DNA from: Magnetococcales bacterium
Lineage (GTDB): Bacteria; Pseudomonadota; Magnetococcia; Magnetococcales; UBA8363
NCBI GenBank assembly: GCA_015232865.1
Contig: JADFYU010000001.1
Coordinates: 182,706-225,238 of the forward strand
Reading direction: 5' to 3'
DNA length: 42,533 nucleotides
Under the pieces are notes generated by a model that ran no database searches, was not told where the DNA came from, and was given only the letters and a program-made list of their open reading frames with translations. Shown piece after piece: positions 14,573-30,120 of the stretch. The translations under genes were made by a program, and so were the position numbers. Position 1 is the first letter of the stretch; every line of letters starts with the position of its first letter.

Positions 14573-15196
14573 TTAATCCTTCGCTGCCAAAATAGGAACA
14601 AAAATGGTTGAACCCGCTGCAGTTTTCTTGTCAGATAACAGGAAAAAAACGCCACCGGTTAACAATCCCACCCCATGAGCGGATGGGGTGGTGACCCAAC
14701 TGGTTTGTGTCAACAGGGCGGTTTTTAAATGCCATTCCAGGCCGATTTTAAGCAGGATGGCCAGGGTGATGACAACCAGTGTCCAATGGCGTTCTTGTTT
14801 CCAGCTCAAGCCCAAAAGCAGAGCGAGTTGGGCGTTGAGCAGACCGGAGAGCCCACAGTAGCGAATCAAGGATGGCTCTTGGAGCCATAGATAGAGGTCT
14901 ATGGTGAGAATAGCCGCCAAAAGCAAGCCCATATATTGCCAGGCTGAGAAGTGGTGCTTTTGTTCCAAAAGGGAGCCGATAATCAGCAGACCCGCCAGGT
15001 TCCAGAATAGGTGGCTGGGATCGGAATGGATGAAATGGCCGCTGATGAGGGTGTAAAAGTCGCCCTGGGTAATGCGTTCCCGATCATAAACCAATTGCGC
15101 ATTGGCTGGGCCAAAGAGAAAATAAAGTCCGCTGCATAGCAATACAATCAGGCTGGTCAACCAGGGAAGGTTCGGCTCGGGCCGGGCGGTATTCAT
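14573..15196 (-). CDS. rrtA: Rhombosortase (rhomboid-family intramembrane serine protease)
   Basis: A 207-residue rhomboid-type membrane protease with about six helices, short as is usual for rhombosortases. The catalytic Ser is in YCGLSG (Ser 117) and the His in PSAHGVG (His 174). The oxyanion and first-loop region GHFIHSDPSHLFWNLAG (53-69) holds the conserved His and Asn. This family cleaves proteins ending in a GlyGly-CTERM signal (Gly-rich motif, one helix, basic tail) during export or surface attachment. The next gene upstream on the same strand encodes exactly such a protein, which strongly supports the pairing. AGGAG seven bases upstream fixes the start. The MITE at 15246-15408 lies between the two genes, about 50 bases before this start. 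Confidence 0.88.
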   Translation of the reverse strand: MNTARPEPNLPWLTSLIVLLCSGLYFLFGPANAQLVYDRERITQGDFYTLISGHFIHSDPSHLFWNLAGLLIIGSLLEQKHHFSAWQYMGLLLAAILTIDLYLWLQEPSLIRYCGLSGLLNAQLALLLGLSWKQERHWTLVVITLAILLKIGLEWHLKTALLTQTSWVTTPSAHGVGLLTGGVFFLLSDKKTAAGSTIFVPILAAKD

Positions 15197-15245
15197 TGAG
15201 GTTCTCCTGTTTTAGTTGGTGGTTAGGGTCGCGGAAAAAAATTAA

Positions 15246-15408
15246 CCTGGAAACGGCAGTTGGGAGTGTATGAGTGGTGCAACATATTGGTTTAGCAACT
15301 GTAATAGAAAAAAATGAAGTCACCCAATGTCTGATAAGGCTTTTTTCTATTACAGTAGATGAATCAAGAGGTTATACCAATCATGTGCTAACAACTGCCA
15401 TTTCTAGG
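15246..15408. mobile_element. MITE copy 1 (163 bp, IS1380-like ends)
   Basis: Terminal inverted repeats CCTGGAAACGGCAGTTG (15246-15262) and, read inward on the other strand, CCTAGAAATGGCAGTTG (15408-15392) match at 15 of 17 positions. The element is flanked by perfect 5-bp direct repeats ATTAA (15241-15245 and 15409-15413), the signature of transposition. Its reverse complement aligns along its whole length with the element at 33214-33375. It also has a perfect 16-bp internal inverted repeat (15298-15313 with 15341-15356). There is no transposase. CC ends and 5-bp AT-rich duplications resemble IS1380-family elements, so a partner IS of that type elsewhere in the genome is inferred. Confidence 0.85.
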
Positions 15409-15453
15409 ATTAATCATCCATTTTGTTGGTCTTCTGGCCTGCCTGCGGTTTAA

Positions 15454-15466
15454 CCTGGATTCGGCA
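15454..15466 (+). repeat. Solo MITE-end-like sequence
   Basis: CCTGGATTCGGCA matches the outer 13 bases of the MITE terminal repeat consensus, but no partner end lies nearby. It may be the relic of an older insertion or a coincidence. Confidence 0.3.
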
Positions 15467-15511
15467 CAAACGGGCCAATTGTTTTTTTCAGCGACCCGGA
15501 TTGGATAGAGT

Positions 15512-17668
15512 TTAGGTGGCCTGTTTTTCTGAAAGTTTTTTAATATTAAGCAGGGCTGTCACGAAGAGCAGATAAAGAGCAAAGTCCAAGGGGCCGCTAC
15601 TGCCACCGCCGGAGTGACTGGGCCGGGGTGACGAGAAAAGGGGAGTGGCGGTGTCGACCCGGCGGGATTGAATAGGAGCGATCTGTCGTTGTTGACTGGC
15701 GTTCTGTTCTTTTTCAATCCGTTTGGCATTGTTTCGGGTAATTCCCAGCCGTTGAAACGCCTCCTCTCGGACCACGACCATGGAGGTGTGGTCGGTGACC
15801 AGGCCATACTGGCTGGCGAGATCGACTTGTGCCTGTTTGCGGTCATCGCTTTCACCCTCAATCTGCTGGTTGTCGTCCATCTCCTGAAGGGTCGCATAGG
15901 CCCAGATCCGTTCCAGTTCCGGGTTGCGCTCGTCATGGTCGGGAAAGTCAAATTGAGTTTTATATACTTTTTTCTCGCCGTTTACGTTGGCGGTCAGGGT
16001 GACAACAGCGGTTCCACCCTGCCGATAATGGCCGAGCAAATTTAACGATTGGCCTCGATAAATCGTGCCGATTCGTTGGGGGGAGAAGGCTTCAGCCTTA
16101 ACCCCGTCTATGGTCACCGTTACATCTCTGAAGGCGTTGTGGGTGGCTTTTGCCGTGGCGGATAATACGGCCCCGATGATATCGTCATTATTAGACAGGC
16201 TGATGGAAAAGCCGTTGGATGCCTTTGTCAAACTCTCCAGCAAAGGCCGGTTGGCGCTGTTGCCCATAACCAGGGTAAACAACCGGACGTCTTGCTTGTT
16301 GAGCAGATCGAGAAACTGTTTTTTTTCGGTATTGCCGACATTGGCCACGCCGTCGGTAACCAGAATCAGGCCGGTGGGTCGGTCGGAATCCAGGTGGGTC
16401 AAGCCCCGCTCCAGACCGTTATACAGATTGGTGCCGCTGCCGGGTTTAATGGCTCGCAACTGAGCGATGGCGTTTGAAACCGACTCGGCAGTGACCGAAG
16501 TAAAACCGTTGGTTATTTCAAAGGCGGATTGATCGAAGAGGATCAGTCGGAACCGGTCGTCCCGGCGCATTTTTTGGAGACTTTTGGTGATTCCATCGGC
16601 CAGGGTTAAAAATTTGCCGCGCATGGATCCGGATTTATCCAGAACGAACACCCAATCCTGACCGCCTTGAATCGGTTTTAAATCGTCTCCGGGTGTGAAG
16701 GTCATCTGAAACGTGCCGGTTTTGTTGGGTCCGGCTTTATAAGCGGTCAGATCCACCGATCCGGGCAGGCCCTTTTTTTGCCGCCAATAGGTGACGATAT
16801 CCTGGTTAAGATGAAAGGAGGAACCGCTCGGATTAAGGGATTGTGTCGGGTTGGGCAGTTGGTTGTCCTCTTGGTTGTCGGTGGTTTGACTTTGAAATGG
16901 AGCCGGTTGACCGTTATCCAGATGGATCTTCCAGTTGCCGTCGGAGTCCCTGATGGCCGGAGCACTCAGAGAGCCGCCCAGAGCCATGGCCTCGACCGGA
17001 TAGGTCGAGCGAAGGGTTAAATCAAAACTAAAATGGCCGATCACCTCATCGTTGGCGGTCCAAAATGCGGTTTTGTTCTCATCCACACCCCCCTCTTCCA
17101 ACGGGTAGAGATAACGGCCCATGCCGGTATCGATCTGGGTCGATTGGATGTATTTCAGACGAATGTGGGCGCTGGAGGTGGCCCGCACCGGCCAGACCGA
17201 AACATCGAAGGTTTTATACGCCTGCTTTTCCATTAATCCAGCCTCCCGACCAGCTTTTTTTTCCGCTTCGTAGACCGCTTTGGCCTCCTGTTTAGGCAAG
17301 ACCTCGCCGTGAATCGGTTTGCCGTCAATCCAATAGGTAAACTGGGCGACGGCGGCTTTTTCCGGCACCGGGAAGGAGTAGATGGCGGTTAAATCCTGAT
17401 TGTGGGGATTTTTAAAGATTTGATCCACCGTCGTAACGGCGTACCCCTCTTCGATGACAACGGAAACCCGATGGTCCTGAATGGATAGTTCAGGTAAGGC
17501 GTGGTTGGTCGGCGTCAGCAGTCCGGCCGCATCGGCTTCGGAACTGGCCAGGCCAGCACCCATGGTGCAGGCCAGTAGTGCCGCCAGGGTCCGGGTGGTG
17601 CCTCTTTTTGTCTGGTATAAATCAGTTGGGGTTTGCTGATAATCGGCTCGGCTATTCTGAATAGTCAT
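15512..17668 (-). CDS. VIT/vWA-domain surface protein with GlyGly-CTERM sorting signal
   Basis: A 718-residue exported protein. The start is the ATG at 17668, with GGGAG six bases upstream; an in-frame ATG 14 codons earlier is less likely. A Sec signal sits near residues 24-47 (TLAALLACTMGAGLASS then ADA). A VIT domain covers about 55-180 (FPVPEKAAVAQFTYWIDG, then KQEAKAVYEAEKKAGREAG). A von Willebrand A domain covers about 338-505 with an intact metal site: DKSGS (344-348), Thr in GSGTN (near 413) and Asp in VTDG (near 439). The C-terminus has GGGSSG, one helix and basic residues, the layout of GlyGly-CTERM. The closest architecture I know is the marine proteobacterial sortase target protein, which ends in an LPXTG-like motif. 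The likely processing enzyme is the rhombosortase downstream. Ligand and surface role are unknown. Confidence 0.85.
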   Translation of the reverse strand: MTIQNSRADYQQTPTDLYQTKRGTTRTLAALLACTMGAGLASSEADAAGLLTPTNHALPELSIQDHRVSVVIEEGYAVTTVDQIFKNPHNQDLTAIYSFPVPEKAAVAQFTYWIDGKPIHGEVLPKQEAKAVYEAEKKAGREAGLMEKQAYKTFDVSVWPVRATSSAHIRLKYIQSTQIDTGMGRYLYPLEEGGVDENKTAFWTANDEVIGHFSFDLTLRSTYPVEAMALGGSLSAPAIRDSDGNWKIHLDNGQPAPFQSQTTDNQEDNQLPNPTQSLNPSGSSFHLNQDIVTYWRQKKGLPGSVDLTAYKAGPNKTGTFQMTFTPGDDLKPIQGGQDWVFVLDKSGSMRGKFLTLADGITKSLQKMRRDDRFRLILFDQSAFEITNGFTSVTAESVSNAIAQLRAIKPGSGTNLYNGLERGLTHLDSDRPTGLILVTDGVANVGNTEKKQFLDLLNKQDVRLFTLVMGNSANRPLLESLTKASNGFSISLSNNDDIIGAVLSATAKATHNAFRDVTVTIDGVKAEAFSPQRIGTIYRGQSLNLLGHYRQGGTAVVTLTANVNGEKKVYKTQFDFPDHDERNPELERIWAYATLQEMDDNQQIEGESDDRKQAQVDLASQYGLVTDHTSMVVVREEAFQRLGITRNNAKRIEKEQNASQQRQIAPIQSRRVDTATPLFSSPRPSHSGGGSSGPLDFALYLLFVTALLNIKKLSEKQAT

Positions 17669-17710
17669 GGTTTGCTCCCTTTTTGCATAAGTTAATTTGC
17701 AATATAACAT

Positions 17711-17727
17711 AGCAACCCACCGGCCAA
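17711..17727 (-). promoter_or_regulatory. Sigma-54 (RpoN) promoter of the vWA surface-protein gene
   Basis: On the minus strand the sequence is TTGGCCGGTGGGTTGCT. The -24 GG (17725-17724) and -12 GC (17713-17712) are separated by exactly ten bases, as sigma-54 requires, and TTGGC and TTGCT match the consensus. Transcription would start near 17700, giving a leader of about 32 bases that carries the ribosome binding site of the gene starting at 17668. The neighbouring divergent gene encodes a sigma-54 activator. Confidence 0.75.
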
Positions 17728-17825
17728 CTGGTTTTTTATTGGTTTTTTGTAGTAATAACAGTTATTTATGTTTGTGTTGTGGCGGGATTGTAATTAATGA
17801 TTTGTTTATTTATAATCAAAAAATG

Positions 17826-17853
17826 TATACTCATTGTTCATAAAATGAATATA
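17826..17853. promoter_or_regulatory. Inverted repeat, candidate activator binding site
   Basis: TATACTCATT (17826-17835) and AATGAATATA (17844-17853) form a 10-bp inverted repeat with one mismatch and an 8-base spacer. Its centre is about 140 bases upstream of the predicted sigma-54 start site, the usual distance for an enhancer-binding protein. It is also about 100 bases before the activator gene, so autoregulation is possible. Confidence 0.4.
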
Positions 17854-17884
17854 GATGGTGAAAATTTTTTGTGGGTATCGTGTT

Positions 17885-17890
17885 TATAAT
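17885..17890 (+). promoter_or_regulatory. Candidate -10 box for the sigma-54 activator gene
   Basis: A perfect TATAAT lies 69 bases before the chosen ATG in an AT-rich region. No good -35 box is visible at 16-18 bases upstream, so this is tentative. Confidence 0.3.
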
Positions 17891-17958
17891 TTAATAATTG
17901 CGGTTGAGGGTCTGGGCTGACAACGGCTGTTTCCAGTTTGAAGAAGGGCGTATCTAAT

Positions 17959-19443
17959 ATGGTTCAGGATTCAGGTTTGCGATCGGAAGAGCGGGATTTA
18001 TTGACCTGTTTGGCCGAGGCGATATTTTTAAATCCCTTCAATGAGTCGCCGCAGCCTCTTGATCAACTGCTGCCCAAGGTTTGTCTGGCCAATCAGAGTC
18101 GCCATGAATTTCGCCTCAATGCCATAAGCCCGGTATTGACGGACCGGATTGCCGAGTTGGACAGGCGGGGGTTGAACAGCATTCGGGCCTTTGATCGGGC
18201 GGATCGATCCATTGTCGAGTATGCCTATCTGTTTCAACTCTATCAGGAGGTGGTGGACCGTTTTGATCAACTGATTGTTGAGCAGAGTCGGCCTGGAGCG
18301 GTGCTGGCTCCGGTTCCATTTGCTTCTGATCTGCTCTCTCAAATGCGAACGCGTGGAATTTCGACCCCGGACAGTCTGCGCTATATCGGTCTGTTTTATC
18401 AGTTACGCCGTGCCTACTATTTTATCGTTCAATCTTTGGTCGGCGATAGTCCCTCCATGAAAAAACTGCGTTATTCTCTGTGGAATAATATCTTTACCTG
18501 GGATGTTCGTAATTATGACCAGTATCTCTGGGGACGAATGGAGGATTTCTCCACCCTGTTGCTGGGAGAAACCGGCAGTGGCAAGGGAGCGGCCGCCGCC
18601 GCTATCGGTCGTTCGGGGTTTATTCCTTTTGACCGGGAAAGCGGTCGGTTTACAGAAAATTTCATGGAAACCTTTGTTGCCATCAATCTGTCGCAATTTT
18701 CTGAAAACATCATTGAATCTGAGTTGTTCGGGCATAAAAAAGGGGCGTTTACCGGGGCAGTGGACAACCATAAAGGGGTGTTTGAACGGTGTAGCACCAA
18801 CGGGGCGTTATTTCTTGATGAAATTGGTGATGTCTCCTCGCACGTTCAGATTAAACTGCTTAAAGTGGTTCAAGAGCGTACCTTTACTCCGGTCGGCAGC
18901 CGTCTGGAACAGCGGTTTTCTGGTCGGGTGATTGCTGCTACCAATCGTTCGTTGCAGCAATTACGTCAGGAAGGATGTTTTCGGGACGACTTTTATTACC
19001 GGCTCTGTTCCGATGAAATTGTCGTCCCCCCCTTGCGTCAGCGTATCCGTGAGCAGCCGGGGGAGTTGGCCCGCATGGTCGGTTTTCTGGTTTTTCGGAC
19101 CACGGGCAGCGAGAGTAAAATCTTGACGGAGCGGGTCTTGGCGGCGCTCTCGGCGGATCTGCCAAAAAACTACGGTTGGCCGGGCAATGTTCGGGAGTTG
19201 GAGCAGGCGGTACGCCGGATTCTGCTCACCGGTCGTTATGGTGGCGATCCTCTGGTTGGCTTGGAAAAACCGGACCATCAATTTTATCAACAGTTTCAAC
19301 ACGGTGATTTTAGTGCAAAAGAGCTGTTAAGCCGCTATTGCCAGGGCTTGTATAAACAGTATAGCAGTTATGAAGAGGTGGCCAAACGGCTGGAGCTGGA
19401 TCGGCGAACGGTTAAAAAATATATCCACGGCGACTCATCTTAA
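17959..19443 (+). CDS. Sigma-54-dependent transcriptional activator (AAA+)
   Basis: A bacterial enhancer-binding protein of 494 residues that remodels sigma-54 RNA polymerase by ATP hydrolysis. Residues 1-185 form a helical N-terminal region I do not recognise; it is neither a phosphoacceptor receiver nor an obvious GAF or PAS domain. The AAA+ domain has Walker A GETGSGKG (203-210), the sigma-54 contact loop GAFTGA (262-267), Walker B GALFLDEIGD (about 282-291), the arginine-finger region FRDDFYYRL, and GWPGNVRELEQ. The C-terminus carries a helix-turn-helix (YEEVAKRLELDRRTVKKYI). I chose ATG 17959, preceded by AAGGG; a TTG at 17938 in frame has no ribosome binding site. It is divergent from the vWA gene with its sigma-54 promoter, its most likely target. 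Confidence 0.88.
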   Translation: MVQDSGLRSEERDLLTCLAEAIFLNPFNESPQPLDQLLPKVCLANQSRHEFRLNAISPVLTDRIAELDRRGLNSIRAFDRADRSIVEYAYLFQLYQEVVDRFDQLIVEQSRPGAVLAPVPFASDLLSQMRTRGISTPDSLRYIGLFYQLRRAYYFIVQSLVGDSPSMKKLRYSLWNNIFTWDVRNYDQYLWGRMEDFSTLLLGETGSGKGAAAAAIGRSGFIPFDRESGRFTENFMETFVAINLSQFSENIIESELFGHKKGAFTGAVDNHKGVFERCSTNGALFLDEIGDVSSHVQIKLLKVVQERTFTPVGSRLEQRFSGRVIAATNRSLQQLRQEGCFRDDFYYRLCSDEIVVPPLRQRIREQPGELARMVGFLVFRTTGSESKILTERVLAALSADLPKNYGWPGNVRELEQAVRRILLTGRYGGDPLVGLEKPDHQFYQQFQHGDFSAKELLSRYCQGLYKQYSSYEEVAKRLELDRRTVKKYIHGDSS

Positions 19444-19509: not shown

Positions 19510-22500
19510 ATGAGAGGCAGTCAGTTTAATCTATTGGTACAGCGTCGTCTGTTACCGCTCTTTTTGACACAATTTTTAGGGGCTTTGAACGATAACCTGT
19601 TTAAAAACGGGTTGGTTATGCTGATCACCTATCGGATTGCAGTGGAAAGTGGTCAAAACAGTCAGCTTTTGGTGACGTTGGCGGCGGGTTTGTTCATTTT
19701 ACCCTTTTTTCTTTTTTCGGCCATAGCCGGGCAGTTGGCGGACAAAATGGAAAAATCGGCGCTGATTCGACGCATCAAAATAGCCGAGATCATCATCATG
19801 GCTCTGGGAGCTGTGGGATTGATGATGGCCAATGTTTGGTTTTTGCTGGGGGTTCTCTTCTTGATGGGCAGCCAGTCGGCTTTTTTTGGCCCGGTCAAGT
19901 ATGCCATTTTGCCGGATCATCTCTCTCAACAAGAGCTGATCGGAGGCAACGCCTTGGTGGAGGCGGGCACCTTTTTGGCTATTTTATTGGGCACCATTGG
20001 CGGTGGCTTGACCATCTTATCCGATCAGGGCACCACCCTCATCTGTCTGACCATCATTCTCTTTGCCCTCTGTGGTTGGTGGGCCAGTCGATTCATCCCG
20101 GAAGCGCCAGCGGCTGATCCGGGGTTGGTTTTGAAAAAAAATATTTTGGTTGAGACTTTGCGCATGATGAAATTGACTACCCAGCGTCGGGATATCTTCC
20201 TCTCTATTTTGGGTATTTCCTGGTTTTGGTTGGTTGGGGCCACCTATTTGACCCAGTTCCCAACTCTGGCCAAGGAGGTGATCGGTGCCAACGAAGAGGT
20301 GGTGACCCTGTTTTTGGCGGTTTTTTCCGTGGGCATCGGTCTGGGTTCTTTGTTGTGTAACCGTTTGCTGGCCGGAGAGGTCAGCGCTCAATATGTTCCG
20401 CTGGCGGCGTTGGGTATGGCGGTGTTTTCTCTGGATCTGGTCTATTCGGCCCATCAAGTCGTCTCAGAGCCAGGTGTTTTAATAGGGGGTGCTGCTTTTT
20501 TATCTTTTGGGGCCAACTGGCGGTTGCTCATCGATCTGCTGCTAATCGCCATTTGCGGCGGCATCTATATCGTTCCGCTCTACAGTATTTTGCAAAGCCG
20601 CAGTGAGGAGTCCAATCGCTCTCGGATCATCGCTGGCAACAACATCATGAACGCCCTGTTTATGGTCGCCTCAGCGGTCATCACCCTTGGACTGCTGGCT
20701 AGTGGTTTTGTCGTCACTCAGGTGTTTTTATTCATGGCCATTGCCAACGTTCTGGTCGCCTTCTACATTTGTAAATTACTGCCGGATCTGATTGTTAAAC
20801 AAATTTTGGCTCAGTTGTTCCGGCTGTTCTATCGGGTCGAGTTGAAGGGCTGGGAGCATTTTGCCAAAGTGGGCCATAAATCGGTGATTGTGGTCAACCA
20901 TGTCTCCTTTTTGGACCCGGCCCTGCTGGCCACCTTTTTGCCCGGTCGTCCGACCTTTGCCGTCAATACCGAGATTGCCAAAAAATGGTGGGTCAAACCG
21001 GCGTTTCGCCTCATCGACACCTACGCCCTGGACCCGACAAGCCCCTTCGCCTTGAAAGGATTGACCCAAGCGGTTCGACAGGGCCGCCATTGTGTCATCT
21101 TTCCAGAAGGACGCATTACCGTCACCGGGGCCTTGATGAAAATATTTGAGGGACCGGGCCTGATAGCCGACCGAGCCGATGCAACCATTCTACCTATACG
21201 CATCAGTGGAGCGGAATATACCCCTTTTTCCAGGCTCAAGGGCAAGGTCAGAATTCGCTGGTTTCCCAAGATCACCCTGACCATGCTGCCACCCACCCGT
21301 TTTGAAATCCCAGAAGAGATCAAGGGCCGAAACCGACGCCAGTTGATTGCCCATAGACTCTATGACCTGCTCTCGGAAATGATGTTTCAGACCAGTACGG
21401 TCGATCGGACCCTGTTTGGCGCTTTGACCGATGCCCGTGTGATTCATGGTGGTCGTTTTGAAGTGCTGGAGGATATGGCCAGAAAACCGGTTACCTATCA
21501 TGGGTTGATCACGATGAGCTTGATTCTGGGCGAGCGGTTTAAACGGTTTACCAAACCCCAAGAGCGGGTTGGTCTGCTGCTGCCCAACGTGATAGGCGCA
21601 GTGAGTAGTTTTTTTGCTCTACAGTCGGGAGGGCGGATTCCGGCGATGTTGAATTTTTCAACGGGCCTGAAAAACATGCTCTCGGCCTGCTCCACAGCCG
21701 AAATTGCCACCATCATCACGTCGCGCCGCTTTGTCGAAATGTCGGGTTTGGCCGAGACCATTGCTGCCTTGAGCCATGTGGCCACTATCGTCTATCTGGA
21801 GGATATGGGGCGTGAGATCGGCTGGATGGACAAAATAAAAGGGGTGGTTGCCGGTCGATTGGCCGGATATTTTGAACGGCAATCGGGTGATTGCGGTAAT
21901 CGCCCGGCAGTGGTTCTGTTTACCTCCGGCTCAGAAGGGGTTCCCAAGGGGGTGGTGTTGAGCCATCGCAACGTACTGTCGAATATCCGTCAATTGAGCG
22001 CCCGTATCGATTATAATCCGACGGATATCGTCTTTAACGCCCTGCCGGTTTTTCACTCGTTCGGTCTGACCGGTGGATTGCTACTACCAAACCTGTCCGG
22101 TATCAAAACTTTTCTCTATCCCTCTCCTCTCCATTATCGCATCGTCCCGGAGATGGTCTATGACAGCAACGCCACCATCTTGTTCGGAACCGATACCTTT
22201 TTAAAAGGATATGCACGGGTTTCCAACCCTTATGACTATTACAGTGTTCGCTATGTTTTTGCCGGAGCCGAGAAGGTCAAAGATGAAACCCGCCGGGTTT
22301 GGATGGACAAGTTTGGTTTGCGGATTTTTGAGGGTTATGGGGCGACCGAAACCTCTCCGGCTTTAACGACCAATACCGCCATGCACTACCGCCCCGGAAC
22401 CGTTGGCCGGTTTCTGCCGGGCATTACCTATCGATTGGAGCCGGTTCCCGGTATTGAAAAAGGCGGACGCCTGTATGTATCCGGTCCCAACGTCATGAGC

Positions 22501-22917
22501 GGCTATCTGAAAGCGGATAATCCCGGAAAGTTGGAACCACCCGAAGGGGGGTGGTATGACACCGGCGATATTGTCGAGGTCGATGACGAAGGGTTTGTAA
22601 AAATTGCCGGTCGGGCCAAACGGTTTGCCAAGGTGGGCGGCGAGATGGTCTCTCTGACAGCGGTTGAATCCCATGCCGCTTCGGTCTGGCCTGGTTTTAG
22701 CCATGCGGTCGTCGCCTCTAACGATGCCAAACGCGGCGAGCAGTTGATTTTGCTGACCGACTGTGCCGATGCCAGCCGGGGTGCACTGTTGGCCGATGCC
22801 AAAAAGCAGGGCATATCGGAGTTGATGGTGCCGAAGACCATTATAATAGTCGATAAAATCCCGGTTCTGGGCACCGGCAAGACCGATTATGTCCGTGTTC
22901 AGGCTTTGGTAAAATAG
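19510..22917 (+). CDS. aas: Aas-type fusion: lysophospholipid transporter, 2-acyl-GPE acyltransferase and acyl-ACP synthetase
   Basis: A 1135-residue inner-membrane protein joining three activities that E. coli splits between LplT and Aas. Residues 1-415 are an MFS flippase (QFLGALNDNLFKN near the start, as in LplT). Residues 430-620 are a PlsC-type acyltransferase with NHVSFLDP (HX4D near 464) and FPEGRITVTGALM near 532. Residues 650-1130 are an AMP-binding synthetase with the P-loop LFTSGSEGVPKG near 804, GYGATE near 940 and a C-terminal Lys in GTGKTDY. Together they import lyso-phosphatidylethanolamine and re-acylate it with an acyl group activated on ACP. GGAGAG precedes the ATG. It starts 66 bases after the sigma-54 activator gene, so read-through is possible but no functional link is known. 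Confidence 0.93.
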   Translation: MRGSQFNLLVQRRLLPLFLTQFLGALNDNLFKNGLVMLITYRIAVESGQNSQLLVTLAAGLFILPFFLFSAIAGQLADKMEKSALIRRIKIAEIIIMALGAVGLMMANVWFLLGVLFLMGSQSAFFGPVKYAILPDHLSQQELIGGNALVEAGTFLAILLGTIGGGLTILSDQGTTLICLTIILFALCGWWASRFIPEAPAADPGLVLKKNILVETLRMMKLTTQRRDIFLSILGISWFWLVGATYLTQFPTLAKEVIGANEEVVTLFLAVFSVGIGLGSLLCNRLLAGEVSAQYVPLAALGMAVFSLDLVYSAHQVVSEPGVLIGGAAFLSFGANWRLLIDLLLIAICGGIYIVPLYSILQSRSEESNRSRIIAGNNIMNALFMVASAVITLGLLASGFVVTQVFLFMAIANVLVAFYICKLLPDLIVKQILAQLFRLFYRVELKGWEHFAKVGHKSVIVVNHVSFLDPALLATFLPGRPTFAVNTEIAKKWWVKPAFRLIDTYALDPTSPFALKGLTQAVRQGRHCVIFPEGRITVTGALMKIFEGPGLIADRADATILPIRISGAEYTPFSRLKGKVRIRWFPKITLTMLPPTRFEIPEEIKGRNRRQLIAHRLYDLLSEMMFQTSTVDRTLFGALTDARVIHGGRFEVLEDMARKPVTYHGLITMSLILGERFKRFTKPQERVGLLLPNVIGAVSSFFALQSGGRIPAMLNFSTGLKNMLSACSTAEIATIITSRRFVEMSGLAETIAALSHVATIVYLEDMGREIGWMDKIKGVVAGRLAGYFERQSGDCGNRPAVVLFTSGSEGVPKGVVLSHRNVLSNIRQLSARIDYNPTDIVFNALPVFHSFGLTGGLLLPNLSGIKTFLYPSPLHYRIVPEMVYDSNATILFGTDTFLKGYARVSNPYDYYSVRYVFAGAEKVKDETRRVWMDKFGLRIFEGYGATETSPALTTNTAMHYRPGTVGRFLPGITYRLEPVPGIEKGGRLYVSGPNVMSGYLKADNPGKLEPPEGGWYDTGDIVEVDDEGFVKIAGRAKRFAKVGGEMVSLTAVESHAASVWPGFSHAVVASNDAKRGEQLILLTDCADASRGALLADAKKQGISELMVPKTIIIVDKIPVLGTGKTDYVRVQALVK

Positions 22918-24637: not shown

Positions 24638-25921
24638 TCAAATAGCCCGAACCCGTGGAATCTCTCTCCACTTGGTCGTGTAGGCGGGGGATTTCATCTG
24701 TTGGCGCATACGCCACTCCTGATGAATGCCTTCGGCACCGAAGCGGAGGGTGTTCGCGCCCATTTTTTGGTTGAGTTGATCCATGACCTGCATCAGACGG
24801 TTTTTTTTCTGTCGCCCTGCATGATCGCTGAACAGGGAGGGTTGATAGTGCTGAATCGGGATTAAGTCCAGCAGGATGATTCCGGCTCGATTATACTCAA
24901 AGCCGGGTCGATAGATTGAGTCGAGAAGTTTTAGGGCGTGCTGGGTGAGTTGGCCGGTATCGTTGATCGATTCTGGCAGGGTGGCGGAGGCGGCGTGGTG
25001 ATACTGTTTGGTTATGGCGACGAACCGACTGGTGCCCAGAAAAACCGAGATCACGTTGGTCAATAACGCCTGCCGGCGCAGTTTGAGTGCGGCTCTGGCG
25101 GTATAGCTGGCGAGGGCTTCTCGCAGGGGAGGCAGGGTTGTGATCCGTTTTCCGAACGAACGTGAAGAGGTGATGGATTGGCTTGGTTTGGTGATGGTCT
25201 CCCATTCCAGGGCCGGTATGCCCCGTAACTCCTGAGCGGTACGGGCGATGACAATATTAAGTCGCCGGGCGATTTGGCCAAGATCGGTATCTCTGAGCTG
25301 GGCGGCGGTGTGGATGCCAAGATGGTTGAGTTTGGCCGCCCCCTTCGATCCGATTCCCCAGATATCGCCAACGGCGGTCATCTCCAGGGCTTTGTGTCGA
25401 TAGGTGGGGGTGGTGAGGCTGAGAACGCCTTTGGTTCGCGGGCTTTTTTTTGCCGTACGATTGGCCAGTTTTGCCAGGGTTTTGGTCGGACCGATGCCGA
25501 TGGAGGTGGGAATGCCGGTGTGCCGGAAAACGGTTTGTTGAAGGGTGCGACACTGTTCGGTCGGGTCGGTCAAATCAGCGCTGCTCAGCTTAATAAAAGC
25601 CTCGTCGATGGAATAAATCTCCATCGGTAATCCGTGGGACTCCAGGGTGCGCATGACACGGGATGAAAGGTCGGCATACAGGGCATAATTGGAGGATAAA
25701 ACCTGGATCTGGTGCTGTTTGATCAATCCTTGGATTTTGTGGAGCGGGGCGCCCATGGGCACGCCCAGGGCTTTGGCTTCGTTGGATCGAGAGACGGCAC
25801 AGCCATCATTGTTGGAAAGAACGATGACCGGGCGATTGTGCAAGCGTGGATTGAAGAGTCGTTCGCAGGAGACATAAAAATTATTGCAATCGACCAAAGC
25901 CAGGTTTTGGGGCGGTTTCAT
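24638..25921 (-). CDS. umuC: Y-family DNA polymerase, UmuC
   Basis: A 427-residue error-prone polymerase, catalytic subunit of a Pol V-like enzyme for translesion synthesis. Metal-binding acidic residues are in place: Asp in ALVDCNNFYVSCERLF (residues 8-23) and Asp-Glu in YSIDEAFIKL (near 103-112). The palm region NDGCAVSRSNEAKALG and the helix-hairpin-helix segment near GDIWGIGSKGAAKLNHLGI (about 180-198) are intact, as is the typical C-terminus ending in YTTKWREIPRV. Length equals that of E. coli UmuC. The ATG overlaps the stop of the LexA/UmuD-like gene by four bases, so the two are translationally coupled. Expression is probably controlled by that upstream protein. Confidence 0.95.
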   Translation of the reverse strand: MKPPQNLALVDCNNFYVSCERLFNPRLHNRPVIVLSNNDGCAVSRSNEAKALGVPMGAPLHKIQGLIKQHQIQVLSSNYALYADLSSRVMRTLESHGLPMEIYSIDEAFIKLSSADLTDPTEQCRTLQQTVFRHTGIPTSIGIGPTKTLAKLANRTAKKSPRTKGVLSLTTPTYRHKALEMTAVGDIWGIGSKGAAKLNHLGIHTAAQLRDTDLGQIARRLNIVIARTAQELRGIPALEWETITKPSQSITSSRSFGKRITTLPPLREALASYTARAALKLRRQALLTNVISVFLGTSRFVAITKQYHHAASATLPESINDTGQLTQHALKLLDSIYRPGFEYNRAGIILLDLIPIQHYQPSLFSDHAGRQKKNRLMQVMDQLNQKMGANTLRFGAEGIHQEWRMRQQMKSPAYTTKWREIPRVRAI

Positions 25922-26619
25922 CTTCTGAACTGATGGACGGCACTGGTCACCACCCCCCAGATTGTCACCTCCATCTCTTCGGTAATTTCCAGGGGCGTAT
26001 ACTGGGGGTTTTCGGGGATCAACCAGACTTTTTTGTTGGTGTGCTGTAACCGTTTGACCGTCAACTCTCCATAGACGACCGCCACGACGATATCTCCGTC
26101 TTTTGCCTCCAAGGATCGATCAACAACCAAAATATTGCCATGATGTATGCCGGCACCGGTCATGGAGGAGCCTTCGACCCGAACAAAAAAGGTGGCCGCC
26201 GGGTGGTCGATCAGGTGTTGGTTTAAATCCAGATGGCCTTCGACATAATCGTCGGCTGGGGAAGGAAATCCGGCTGGGACGGTTGATCCATAGAGGGGGA
26301 TGGGGTAAACGGATGTGGTTGTGGCGGCCTGAACGGATAGAACAGACCCGGAACGTTCAGGCCTGGATACGGCGGTTGCTGTGTGCGGTGGGATTAAACG
26401 CACGGAACGGGCCTTGTTATCACTCTGGGTGAGCACCCCCTTTTTTCTTAATTTTTTGATTTGCTCATGGACGCTGGGGCCGCGAATGTTGAGATGGTCG
26501 GCCAACTCCTGAATGGTGGGAAAAAGCGCTGTTTTTTTTGAGAGCAGGCGGATGGCCTGAACCAGTCGTTCCTGGGCCGGGGTTAATCCTTTTGTGGGTT
26601 TCGGACCTCTGTTGACCAT
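25918..26619 (-). CDS. umuD: LexA/UmuD hybrid: winged-helix DNA-binding domain plus self-cleaving S24 peptidase
   Basis: A 233-residue protein. Residues 10-75 are a LexA-type winged helix (GLTPAQERLVQAIRLL, then FPTIQELADHLNIRG, then LRKKGVL and KARSVRL). Residues 105-233 are an S24 domain whose sequence is closer to UmuD than LexA: the cleavage site is Ala116-Gly117 in VPAGFPSPADDYVEGHLDLN, with the catalytic Ser 152 in EGSSM and Lys 189 in GELTVKRL. It therefore combines a repressor head with a mutagenesis subunit. RecA-stimulated cleavage should release a UmuD'-like fragment and also inactivate the repressor. It is the first gene of an operon with umuC. A perfect 14-bp palindrome overlaps its promoter. 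Confidence 0.9.
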   Translation of the reverse strand: MVNRGPKPTKGLTPAQERLVQAIRLLSKKTALFPTIQELADHLNIRGPSVHEQIKKLRKKGVLTQSDNKARSVRLIPPHTATAVSRPERSGSVLSVQAATTTSVYPIPLYGSTVPAGFPSPADDYVEGHLDLNQHLIDHPAATFFVRVEGSSMTGAGIHHGNILVVDRSLEAKDGDIVVAVVYGELTVKRLQHTNKKVWLIPENPQYTPLEITEEMEVTIWGVVTSAVHQFRR

Positions 26620-26769: not shown

Positions 26770-29700
26770 TCATGAAAGAGAAAAACCGATTATTGAAACA
26801 TCATCCCGACGGCTTTCGGATCCTTGGTGATCTGTTAACGCTTGCAGCAAAATAGTTTTCTGCTCTTCAAAGGGAATGTCCCGGCTTTTAAGAAGTAACT
26901 CTGTAAACCTGCGCTTACCAAACCCACGTCTTTTTTTACCGCCCACTTGATCAATGATACCGTCTGAAGTCATATAGAATCTCTGCCATGGTCGAAGCTC
27001 AATTGAAATATCTTGATAAATTTGATCTCTGGGAATGCCTCGGTAGCCCGTACCTTTTTTGGTTCCTTTGATTATAGACACCTTCTCTCCTTCCAACACA
27101 AAAAGCTCAAAGCGAGCTCCAGAGAAAAGCATGATTCCACCTTTGGATGGGATGTAGCAGACTCCCAATTCCAAGCCATCATCAGACTCACCTTTATCCA
27201 GGTGTTGTCCCAAGGCCGTTTGAATCAACTGGTGAATCCGTTGTAAAAGCAGACCAGGATTGCCAGGCTCAACCTCACGATAGGCTTGTCCAAATGCCCC
27301 ATTGGAAATGAGAGTCATGAACGCTCCAGGAACACCGTGACCGGTACAATCTCCAAGCATCAACACGTGTCCATCGCCCCAAGGGCGGCACCAATACATA
27401 TCTCCACCTACCACATCTCTAGGCTCCCAGATTACGAACCGGTTCGGAATCACCTTATCCAGGTTGCGCGCCAAGGGTAGGATGGAGTGCTGAATTCGAC
27501 TGGCGTACCGGATACTTCCGGAGATAATTTCCATGGCATCATCGACAACGTGTTTAGCATGCAGAAGATCTTGCTCCGCTTTTTTTCTGAGCGCAATCTC
27601 TTGGGCCATGCGGCGGTTCCATACCACAATTATAAAAATAATGAAGGTCGCAGCACTCCCAATCGGCACGGCCCAAATAAGAATTGTCTTGATGTCCAGT
27701 CCGAACTGTACCTGAACTGCCATCCAGGTGTTTTCTATTGACTTGCGTTCATTTTCATCAATGCTCTCAAGGGCTTTATCCAGCAACACCACCAATTCCG
27801 GCCAATCTTTGCGAACACCGATAGAAAGCTCGAATTTATAGTCTGTGGGTGCTGCAATTTTAATCTTGGAGAGCTTTTTCTGGTCGATCAGGAAGGTTAT
27901 GCCGCCCAGGTTGTCAATAAAGGCGGTGATCTGTTTGTTCTGGAGTTCGATCATTCCCTCTTCCAGGTTATTGAATGGCACCAGGGATAAATCAGGATGC
28001 TCCTGGCTGAGAATATCTTGAATGGCAGATCCTGCGACTACGCCGGTCTTGAGACCTTTTAAGTCAGAAATCTTGCCAACGAAAGGGGTGTCCTTGTGCG
28101 TGGCAATCACGATGGGGAAAGAGATGATGGGTTTGGTAAAGTTGAGATAAGACTCCCGCTCTGGCGTGCGCACGATTGCGGGTATGATATCCACATCGCC
28201 AGACTTCACTTTATGGATCACCTGCTCCCAGGAAAGACCCCACATGGGCGTCATTTTAATACCCAGACGCTGAGAGAACACATCCAGATATCCGGCGGAA
28301 ATACCACTGAATTTATCCTGTTCATCCCGAAAACTAAAGGGGGGAAAATTAAAGTCTCCGCCAATTCGGATGTCTAGATGTTTGGTCAGCCACTGCTCTT
28401 CATCCAAGGACAAATCAATATGCTTTCTATCCCCAGAGGTATCCATTTTAAGCCACTTTTTCTGAAGTTCTCGACGTTCCTCCTGTGTGATTGTATCCAA
28501 TCCTTTCTGAAGAATTGACTGTAAAATTGGTTCATCGATGCGGGAAAAAAAATGCAGCGGAGAAGGCGGAATTATTTTTTGACTAATTCCTTTGATGCCT
28601 GTAATGCTGTTATCCCTCAAGGTTTGGTACATGACAATTTGGGATTGGATCAGGGCATCGACCTCTTTGTTAAGAACAGCATTGATAGCCTCTAATATAT
28701 CCAGCGTTTCCACAATCGTGGCAGTCGGCAAATAGGCCTTTATCTTCGGGGTGGTGCCATAACTTTTCAACATGGCGATTTTCTTGTTGGCCAGGTCGTC
28801 CATGGTGTGAATTTTTTGATTATCAGAAAGAACGTATATAAACTCCTTCGATAGAAAGTATGGTTTGGAAAAGAGACCATAGGTGGCCCGTTCATCGTTA
28901 TAAAAGGCGTCCGGAAGCAGATCGATGGTGCGTTCACGAAAACCGATCAACAGAGTTTCCCAAATGTCACTGACGAACTCGAATTGCAGCCCTGTACGTT
29001 GTGCCAAAAGCTCTAAATAGCCACCGACAAGCCCACCGACCTGTCCATCTTTGGTCGCAAAAATAATGGGCCGCCACTCCTCGACACCTACTTTGACCGT
29101 GTGGCTGGAAACCCAATTTTGCTCTTCTTTATTTAGTTTAGCCTTGATGGTCTGAGGGCTGAGTTCTCCCCAGAGGAATCCAGGAGGAATCTCCTGTTGA
29201 TTAGCCAGCAGGAGTTGTTGGTAGGTGGCTGCAATTTTTTTGTAGCGGGATGGCTCTATATGGCCCAACTTAAAGGTGCGCGTATCGACCAGTTCCGCTG
29301 TTTGACGAGCTTCGAACTTCAAATGGGGCCGGGTTTTATTTTGGGTGTTATATTTTTTCAGGATCAGATCAATGATCTCATCCTGGTGGTCCAAAGCATA
29401 TTGCCAACCTTTGAGTGTCGCTCGAAGAACCTTGGCCACCCGTTCCGGATGATCTTTGGCTTCAAGTTCAGAGGTGAACAGATTGTCGCCGTAAAAATCG
29501 ATTCCGTAATCTCTAGGATCGATGACATTGGCCTCTTCCCCCTGTTCATGGAACCAAAAGGGTTCGTTGGTAGAGTAAGCCAACATGGCATCCACCCTAC
29601 CTTCGATAACATCCTCAAAGCGATAGGAATGCTCTTGCCAATCCACCTTTTCCTGAGCCCCGAGAGCCTTACGCACCATTGCCTTTAAGGATGCATCTCC

Positions 29701-30120
29701 CTGGCCTTGCAGATAAGTCATGACTGACTTGCCAGCCAGATCGTAGGGTGTGCGCAGATTGGATTTACGCAGGGTAAGAATAATCACCGGGGAGTGCTGA
29801 AATATCTGTGCAATCAGAACCACCGGCTCATTATTCAGGCGAGAAAGCAGTAAGCCCGCATCAGATACCCCGTAGGTGGCCCGTCCACTAACCACCTCTT
29901 TGACCGGATCACCATTGGCCACATACTCGATCAGATCAACATCCAACCCTTCCTCGGCATAAAAGCCTTTCTCCAGAGCTGCATAATACCCTGCAAACTG
30001 GAACTGGTGAAACCACTTGAACTGGATTGAGATTTTTTCTGGGTCTTGAGCTTGGGCAGGCACTGTTAAAGCACACAGTGTATAGAGGGAAAAAACCAGG
30101 AAAAAAAAACGTTTCATCAA
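26770..30120 (-). CDS. Membrane sensor phosphatase: NMT1-like plus two SBP3 domains fused to SpoIIE/PP2C
   Basis: A 1116-residue membrane protein. Residues 1-24 are a signal sequence. Residues 28-300 are an NMT1/THI5-like periplasmic binding domain (FKWFHQFQFAGYYAALEKGF). Residues 340-560 and 580-800 are two family-3 solute-binding domains (the second begins DIRIGGDFNFPPFSFRDE). A transmembrane helix lies near 810-832, followed by a short coiled coil. Residues 880-1116 are a SpoIIE-type Ser/Thr phosphatase with intact metal Asp residues (VVGGDMYW near 905, GDCTGHGVPGAFM near 923, a later SDG and RRDDVS). Small-molecule binding outside would control dephosphorylation of a cytosolic partner, usually an STAS anti-anti-sigma factor. 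No such partner or anti-sigma kinase is in the window, so the output is unknown. Confidence 0.88.
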   Translation of the reverse strand: MMKRFFFLVFSLYTLCALTVPAQAQDPEKISIQFKWFHQFQFAGYYAALEKGFYAEEGLDVDLIEYVANGDPVKEVVSGRATYGVSDAGLLLSRLNNEPVVLIAQIFQHSPVIILTLRKSNLRTPYDLAGKSVMTYLQGQGDASLKAMVRKALGAQEKVDWQEHSYRFEDVIEGRVDAMLAYSTNEPFWFHEQGEEANVIDPRDYGIDFYGDNLFTSELEAKDHPERVAKVLRATLKGWQYALDHQDEIIDLILKKYNTQNKTRPHLKFEARQTAELVDTRTFKLGHIEPSRYKKIAATYQQLLLANQQEIPPGFLWGELSPQTIKAKLNKEEQNWVSSHTVKVGVEEWRPIIFATKDGQVGGLVGGYLELLAQRTGLQFEFVSDIWETLLIGFRERTIDLLPDAFYNDERATYGLFSKPYFLSKEFIYVLSDNQKIHTMDDLANKKIAMLKSYGTTPKIKAYLPTATIVETLDILEAINAVLNKEVDALIQSQIVMYQTLRDNSITGIKGISQKIIPPSPLHFFSRIDEPILQSILQKGLDTITQEERRELQKKWLKMDTSGDRKHIDLSLDEEQWLTKHLDIRIGGDFNFPPFSFRDEQDKFSGISAGYLDVFSQRLGIKMTPMWGLSWEQVIHKVKSGDVDIIPAIVRTPERESYLNFTKPIISFPIVIATHKDTPFVGKISDLKGLKTGVVAGSAIQDILSQEHPDLSLVPFNNLEEGMIELQNKQITAFIDNLGGITFLIDQKKLSKIKIAAPTDYKFELSIGVRKDWPELVVLLDKALESIDENERKSIENTWMAVQVQFGLDIKTILIWAVPIGSAATFIIFIIVVWNRRMAQEIALRKKAEQDLLHAKHVVDDAMEIISGSIRYASRIQHSILPLARNLDKVIPNRFVIWEPRDVVGGDMYWCRPWGDGHVLMLGDCTGHGVPGAFMTLISNGAFGQAYREVEPGNPGLLLQRIHQLIQTALGQHLDKGESDDGLELGVCYIPSKGGIMLFSGARFELFVLEGEKVSIIKGTKKGTGYRGIPRDQIYQDISIELRPWQRFYMTSDGIIDQVGGKKRRGFGKRRFTELLLKSRDIPFEEQKTILLQALTDHQGSESRRDDVSIIGFSLS

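Follow-up and report, generated by a model that had tools for sequence, protein, structure and literature searches.

A rhombosortase/vWA pair beside a sigma-54 activator and an aas gene in a Magnetococcales bacterium, and the recurrence of Aas near related vWA genes

The adjacency of a rhombosortase gene and a single target with a GlyGly tail was published in 2011 (Haft and Varghese, PMC3237569), and the available part of that paper already shows GlyGly, LPXTG and PEP-CTERM tails within the VIT/vWA (von Willebrand factor A) family. In Vibrio cholerae, the processing of the protease VesB by a rhombosortase and the attachment of a glycerophosphoethanolamine-containing group have been measured (PMC6219818). 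The marine sortase targets of family TIGR03788, which go with the class GN sortase TIGR03784, likewise combine VIT and vWA domains with a dedicated neighbouring enzyme. LplT-Aas flips and reacylates lysophospholipids (PMC11416262). Here we describe a locus in a 42,533-nt stretch of DNA from a Magnetococcales bacterium (contig JADFYU010000001.1; the whole stretch is referred to as the window), in which genes for a rhombosortase, a VIT/vWA protein with a GlyGly-type tail, a divergent sigma-54 activator and an Aas homologue follow one another (Table 1).

The window pair resembles those of 2011 in having a rhombosortase beside one GlyGly-tailed target, and the vault/vWA homologues in Fig. 3C of PMC3237569 carry GlyGly tails as it does; it differs from the pairs in the available part of that paper by a repeat resembling a miniature inverted-repeat transposable element (MITE) between the two genes, and by the activator and aas alongside. 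The V. cholerae system is alike in tail and enzyme, but its substrate VesB is a protease and that of the window a VIT/vWA protein, for which the lipid modification measured on VesB would be expected by analogy. Compared with TIGR03788, the window protein scores 188 bits, far below the cut-off of 551.65, and it has a GlyGly tail, a rhombosortase and a place on the opposite side of the tree described below. The window aas product is, like LplT-Aas, a transporter-acyltransferase-ligase fusion; a recurrent placing near vWA genes is not described in the available part of PMC11416262.

We think it likely that the locus is a surface-display pair standing beside an activator-aas unit, with the activator driving the vWA gene and display tied to lipid genes. 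The locus holds a real and probably functional rhombosortase/vWA pair of the known kind, and what deserves further work is the recurrence of Aas in such neighbourhoods.

A first-pass annotation had placed the rhombosortase, the VIT/vWA gene and a divergent activator side by side, and profile searches confirmed all three. The rhombosortase scores above the curated cut-off of TIGR03902 and also matches Rhomboid PF01694. Its Ser117 and His174 are each common to 46 of the 47 aligned rhombosortases (window included), and we take them to have the catalytic roles of the corresponding residues in rhomboid proteases. The VIT/vWA protein matches VIT (PF08487, 108.6 bits) and VWA (PF00092, 48.2 bits), and a DKSGSM metal-site motif can be read from its sequence. 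As a start at 17710 would touch the promoter, its translation probably begins with the ATG at 17668, which follows AAAGGGAG. The protein ends in SHSGGGSSG, a hydrophobic stretch and a KK end. A hidden Markov model (HMM) was built from the 46 tails of vWA proteins with an adjacent rhombosortase, the window being left out. The score it gives to the window tail (Table 1) was reached by none of 1000 shuffles (maximum 19.9 bits), and the best of the 19 sortase-type tails scored 14.0 bits. The 32 other window open reading frames of at least 150 amino acids reached 1.3 bits at most, ie no further GlyGly-type tail was found among them. The GlyGly-type tail proposed at first pass is thus borne out by the family HMM, and the cognate rhombosortase for it is the neighbouring gene.

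Table 1. Positions of the features of the locus in the window
Feature	Position	Strand	Evidence
Rhombosortase, 207 aa	14573..15196	-	TIGR03902 91.4 bits against cut-off 84; Ser117 and His174 conserved
MITE-like repeat between vWA and rhombosortase	15242..15413		68-nt inverted arms, 76% complementary; matches in 7/48 genomes of the class of G147
VIT/vWA protein, GlyGly-type tail	15512..17710	-	PF08487, PF00092; start probably 17668
GlyGly-type C-terminal sorting tail, last 42 residues	15515..15640	-	Tail HMM 29.4 bits
Sigma-54-like promoter TGGC-N7-TTGCT into vWA	17711..17726	-	10/12 consensus score
Activator-site-like repeats, 10/12 and 9/12 to TATACA-N5-TGTATA	17813..17853		95 and 117 bp before promoter, respectively
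Sigma-54 activator (AAA+), predicted all-helical N-terminal part	17938..19443	+	PF00158; relatives; model
aas: LplT-type transporter, acyltransferase and acyl-ACP ligase in one protein	19510..22917	+	NF005291 1655 bits against cut-off 1349

One scan of species genomes gave 207 vWA relatives, the best 80 loci of which were kept. The first-pass annotation had proposed a survey for rhombosortases beside GlyGly VIT/vWA genes, and the pairing was found in 46 of the 80, the rhombosortase being the next gene downstream on the strand of vWA. Judged by their longest open frames, the two genes overlap in 37 of the 46, and no gap among them exceeds 193 bases. Among the other 34, two contigs (L055 and L060) end at vWA, both being cut before or in the tail, so that adjacency cannot be read there. 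A rhombosortase over the cut-off is present elsewhere in 27 of the 34 genomes; three of the remaining seven have weaker matches only, of the kind given by the ordinary rhomboids of 14 control genomes, and four have none. Of the window protein and its 80 relatives, 75 have a simple Gly/Ser motif within their last 60 residues; an LPXTG- or PxTA-like motif is absent from the last 70 residues of all 81. That rhombosortase and substrate look dedicated to one another is supported.

The first-pass annotation had further described the locus as a self-contained, one-substrate, sigma-54-induced cassette in which the sortase was replaced by a rhombosortase. The three neighbouring genes exist, as does the promoter-like site, but the proposed swap is not supported. 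A class GN sortase match was obtained in 27 of 185 genomes of one class (that of a Gammaproteobacteria record, G002), 23 of them over the cut-off, and a distant VIT/vWA protein is encoded in 19 of the best 20 of those regions. When 102 proteins were placed in a tree, a very long, fully supported branch separated 82 GlyGly rows from the 19 sortase-type rows, which are joined on their side by L093, a distant row from the class of the Magnetococcales genome G147. The window protein falls among the GlyGly rows with no sortase-type row near it, and a recent change from sortase to rhombosortase at the locus was rejected on the basis of the tree. Since the tail and adjacency counts, the tree and the 2011 record of tail variety (PMC3237569) agree, the machinery was not swapped here. 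As the activator, too, is not conserved with the pair (see below), the replaced-sortase cassette is very improbable. The window pair belongs to a widespread, old rhombosortase-type clade. Two genomes, G012 (L045, L132) and G022 (L061, L142), contain VIT/vWA systems of both types, GlyGly and sortase.

The window aas lies behind the activator on the same strand, just beyond the segment 14573..19443 that holds the other three genes, 1800 bases from vWA. Aas homologues were found 241 to 2705 bases from vWA in 16 of the 80 relative loci (L002, L011, L013, L014, L016, L017, L018, L019, L032, L033, L045, L050, L051, L060, L063 and L073), either behind the regulator or downstream; some are the full fusion and others a shorter acyltransferase-ligase (one example of either form was checked by Pfam). 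The controls, several regions of which were short, gave none in the 20 sortase regions and none in 20 loci with a stand-alone rhombosortase (the best 20 of the 27 genomes having it elsewhere); Fisher's test gives p = 0.037 for the comparison with either control alone and 0.0012 with the two together. In 24 genomes, many of them chosen because Aas was near vWA, 29 Aas-like matches were counted in all, with 23 genomes having at least one, ie about one per genome. We estimate from this that chance proximity would account for well under one locus in 80 (about 16 kb of about 4 Mb). A quick tree of 81 proteins requires 12 changes of Aas label, at least 10 of them on well-supported branches, so the neighbourhood is not the property of one lineage, although L018 and L019, and L011 and L016, are close kin. 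No link of rhombosortase with Aas or sigma-54 was found by title or start of abstract in a limited literature, which is weak evidence of absence, and no paper on sigma-54 with phospholipid genes came up either. The recurrence of Aas near GlyGly vWA genes is new here, and is a hint that lipid-anchored display and the repair of lysophospholipids are connected. We propose the link because VesB receives a glycerophosphoethanolamine-containing group (PMC6219818) and LplT-Aas reacylates lysophospholipids (PMC11416262).

The activator matches PF00158 (149 bits), and GETGSGKG and GAFTGA can be read from its sequence; the ATG at 17959 is the likelier start, and its N-terminal part is predicted to be all-helical (mean predicted local distance difference test score of the whole model 77.5). 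Its closest relative, 69% identical, is in a metagenome-assembled Magnetococcales genome (G147), where it precedes an aas of 78.7% identity, the two genes being arranged and oriented as in the window. Searches of G147, the completeness of which is not known, found neither a vWA gene (E up to 1e-10) nor a rhombosortase (E up to 1e-15); the activator-aas unit thus also exists without the pair. Across 48 genomes of this class the activator was found in one (E up to 1e-80), vWA in three (one broken, one distant) and a rhombosortase over the cut-off in one (G048), which has an overlapping vWA/rhombosortase pair and no activator within the 16 kb fetched. Pair and activator are therefore separable both ways. 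In wider samples the activator was present in 1 of 398 genomes at E up to 1e-100 and, at E up to 1e-90, in 4 of 369 genomes and in 20 of 195 of one order.

The activator had also been taken at first pass for a part of the module, and its co-occurrence with the pair was to be surveyed. This part did not hold: the DNA of the 80 relative loci gave only one weak relative (131 bits, in L002), which rules out the activator as a conserved part of a cassette, and genome-wide its family is present in 2 of the 44 pair-bearing genomes asked. What recurs is a regulator place. Within 1.5 kb upstream of vWA there is a TetR-type regulator in 36 of the 80 loci and a Cro/C1-type one in 17 (two of each confirmed by Pfam), and where 700 bases or more of upstream DNA were available (72 loci), 52 have a regulator of one of these two types; in the window this place is filled by the sigma-54 activator. 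These separations suggest another explanation, that an ordinary pair landed by an unrelated activator-aas unit and that the activator controls lipid genes only. The mobile-type repeat inside the locus would agree with it. The gap between vWA and rhombosortase, 315 bases, exceeds that of all 46 relatives, and most of the genomes with matches to the repeat have many copies, of up to 87% identity. TTAA is found at both ends of the window repeat; the G147 copy (L097) does not begin with it.

The promoter region bears on this directly. The well-spaced sigma-54 promoter reported at first pass before vWA is present as a sigma-54-like site, TGGCCGGTGGGTTGCT, which has the right spacing and is weak when judged by sequence alone: TGGC-N7-TTGCW occurs twice in the window against 1.15 expected, a count reached by 33 of 100 shuffles, and we rejected the sequence by itself as proof of regulation. 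It is strengthened by its place before vWA and by the flanking repeats. Since L109 and G147 supplied the pattern of the repeat, they provide no independent test of it; in both (G147 also as L090) it is 12/12 and stands 116 bp before the promoter. In L109 (Sedimenticola) and L110 (same order) an activator relative is divergent from a phospholipid operon with genes for a hydrolase-methyltransferase, a phosphatase, a CDP-alcohol transferase and a cytidylyltransferase, and in L109 also an acyltransferase and a transporter (identified by Pfam in L109 and by similarity in L110). Both have an 11/12 sigma-54-like site in the gap between activator and operon, L110 with a 9/12 repeat 105 bp before it, and G147 has a 10/12 site before aas. 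Within 26 activator loci (window included) six have a site of at least 10/12, five of these with a repeat of at least 9/12. Aas is beside the activator in four of the 26 (the window, L090, L178 and L179; the last two have no sigma-54-like site of 10/12 or better) and the phospholipid operon in three (L109, L110 and L182, the first and last of which appear to be strains of a single species).

Sigma-54 control of vWA by the activator is plausible, because promoter and repeats in the window are similar to those found elsewhere at lipid genes neighbouring the activator. The landing of unrelated neighbours seems to us unlikely: promoter and repeats face vWA in a geometry like that at the lipid genes, no sigma-54-like site was found between activator and aas in the window, and 16 of 80 vWA loci have Aas close by. 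In addition, a single 135003-base contig of Sedimenticola (L018/G445) has the pair, Aas, a phospholipid operon and the activator within about 16 kb (the vWA gene lies from about 88.6 kb on, Aas occupies 93.3-96.7 kb and the activator 102.6-104.1 kb), and a second strain (L019 and L182, both with a contig of 68082 bases) looks the same in arrangement. As a separate observation, L109:2-6291, L110:1-3998 and L182 each have a sigma-54-type promoter before the phospholipid operon, divergent from an activator relative. The operon presumably resembles E. coli ynbABCD.

Several points weigh against the reading of a display pair tied to lipid genes by the activator. The curated GlyGly model TIGR03501 is silent on the window tail, which says little because at E up to 0.1 it matches just 3 of 32 family members scanned, the window not being one of them. 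The window rhombosortase departs from its relatives at Tyr48-Thr49: Trp stands at the first of these places in 45 and Arg at the second in 46 of the 47 aligned, a pair of residues that is a feature of the relatives aligned here and not a published definition of rhombosortase. The insert may split vWA and rhombosortase into separate transcripts, which makes co-transcription uncertain. The best window repeat is equalled by 3.1% of 2000 shuffles and that of L110 reached by 19.7%. When the vWA promoter regions of 79 relatives and the window were scored (L062 was left out, its upstream DNA being too short), only L063 reached 10/12 besides the window, as did 0.76% of shuffled regions, and a sigma-54 promoter is weak as a general feature of vWA genes. 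In the DNA fetched, 19 of the 26 activator loci have neither Aas nor the phospholipid operon, which rules out a universal lipid association of the activator. In the DNA examined, many short contigs among it, 64 of the 80 vWA loci show no Aas. Lastly, Aas tracks vWA rather than rhombosortase: six Aas loci (L013, L032, L045, L050, L063 and L073) have no rhombosortase beside vWA, and the stand-alone rhombosortase loci gave no Aas. The vWA protein might then act in envelope lipid homeostasis, with Aas following it and the rhombosortase merely anchoring it. Nine of the 16 Aas loci do have an adjacent rhombosortase (the L060 contig ends at vWA), and although such a role is possible, the balance seems to us to lie somewhat against it.

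Our preferred reading is of a display pair beside an activator-aas unit. Starting from the observed genes, tail type, clade, neighbourhood and geometry of promoter and repeats, we infer the following steps, those of export, anchoring and secretion from the case of VesB (PMC6219818). The VIT/vWA protein would be exported by Sec and held in the inner membrane by its GlyGly tail. The neighbouring rhombosortase would then cut the tail, and the glycine now exposed at the C-terminus would receive a phosphatidylethanolamine-type lipid; finally, type II secretion would carry the protein to the surface. The activator would probably drive vWA from the divergent sigma-54 promoter, tying vWA display to its lipid genes. 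A closer union of VIT/vWA protein, rhombosortase and Aas in one functional unit can be put forward only tentatively, and we consider it rather doubtful. The rhombosortase would spend phosphatidylethanolamine on anchoring, vWA protein and Aas would maintain the phospholipid pool and the outer membrane, and the regulators would differ by lineage (TetR, Cro/C1 and, here, a sigma-54 activator with phospholipid-operon relatives).

Elsewhere in the window, positions 1281-2723 encode an exosortase-A-associated O-glycosylation ligase (TIGR03097, 424 bits), and a PEP-CTERM-type system may thus exist in the same genome. A UmuD/UmuC-type translesion polymerase pair is at 24638-26619, and a protein of 1116 aa at 26773-30120 has solute-binding-like domains and a SiaA-type phosphatase domain, all below curated cut-offs.

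The recurrent grouping of a GlyGly substrate with a lysophospholipid repair gene and a regulator offers a concrete place in which to test which lipid a rhombosortase attaches and what becomes of the membrane supplying it. The exchangeable regulator place, occupied by TetR-type, Cro/C1-type or sigma-54 regulators, suggests that vWA display is conditional in many lineages.

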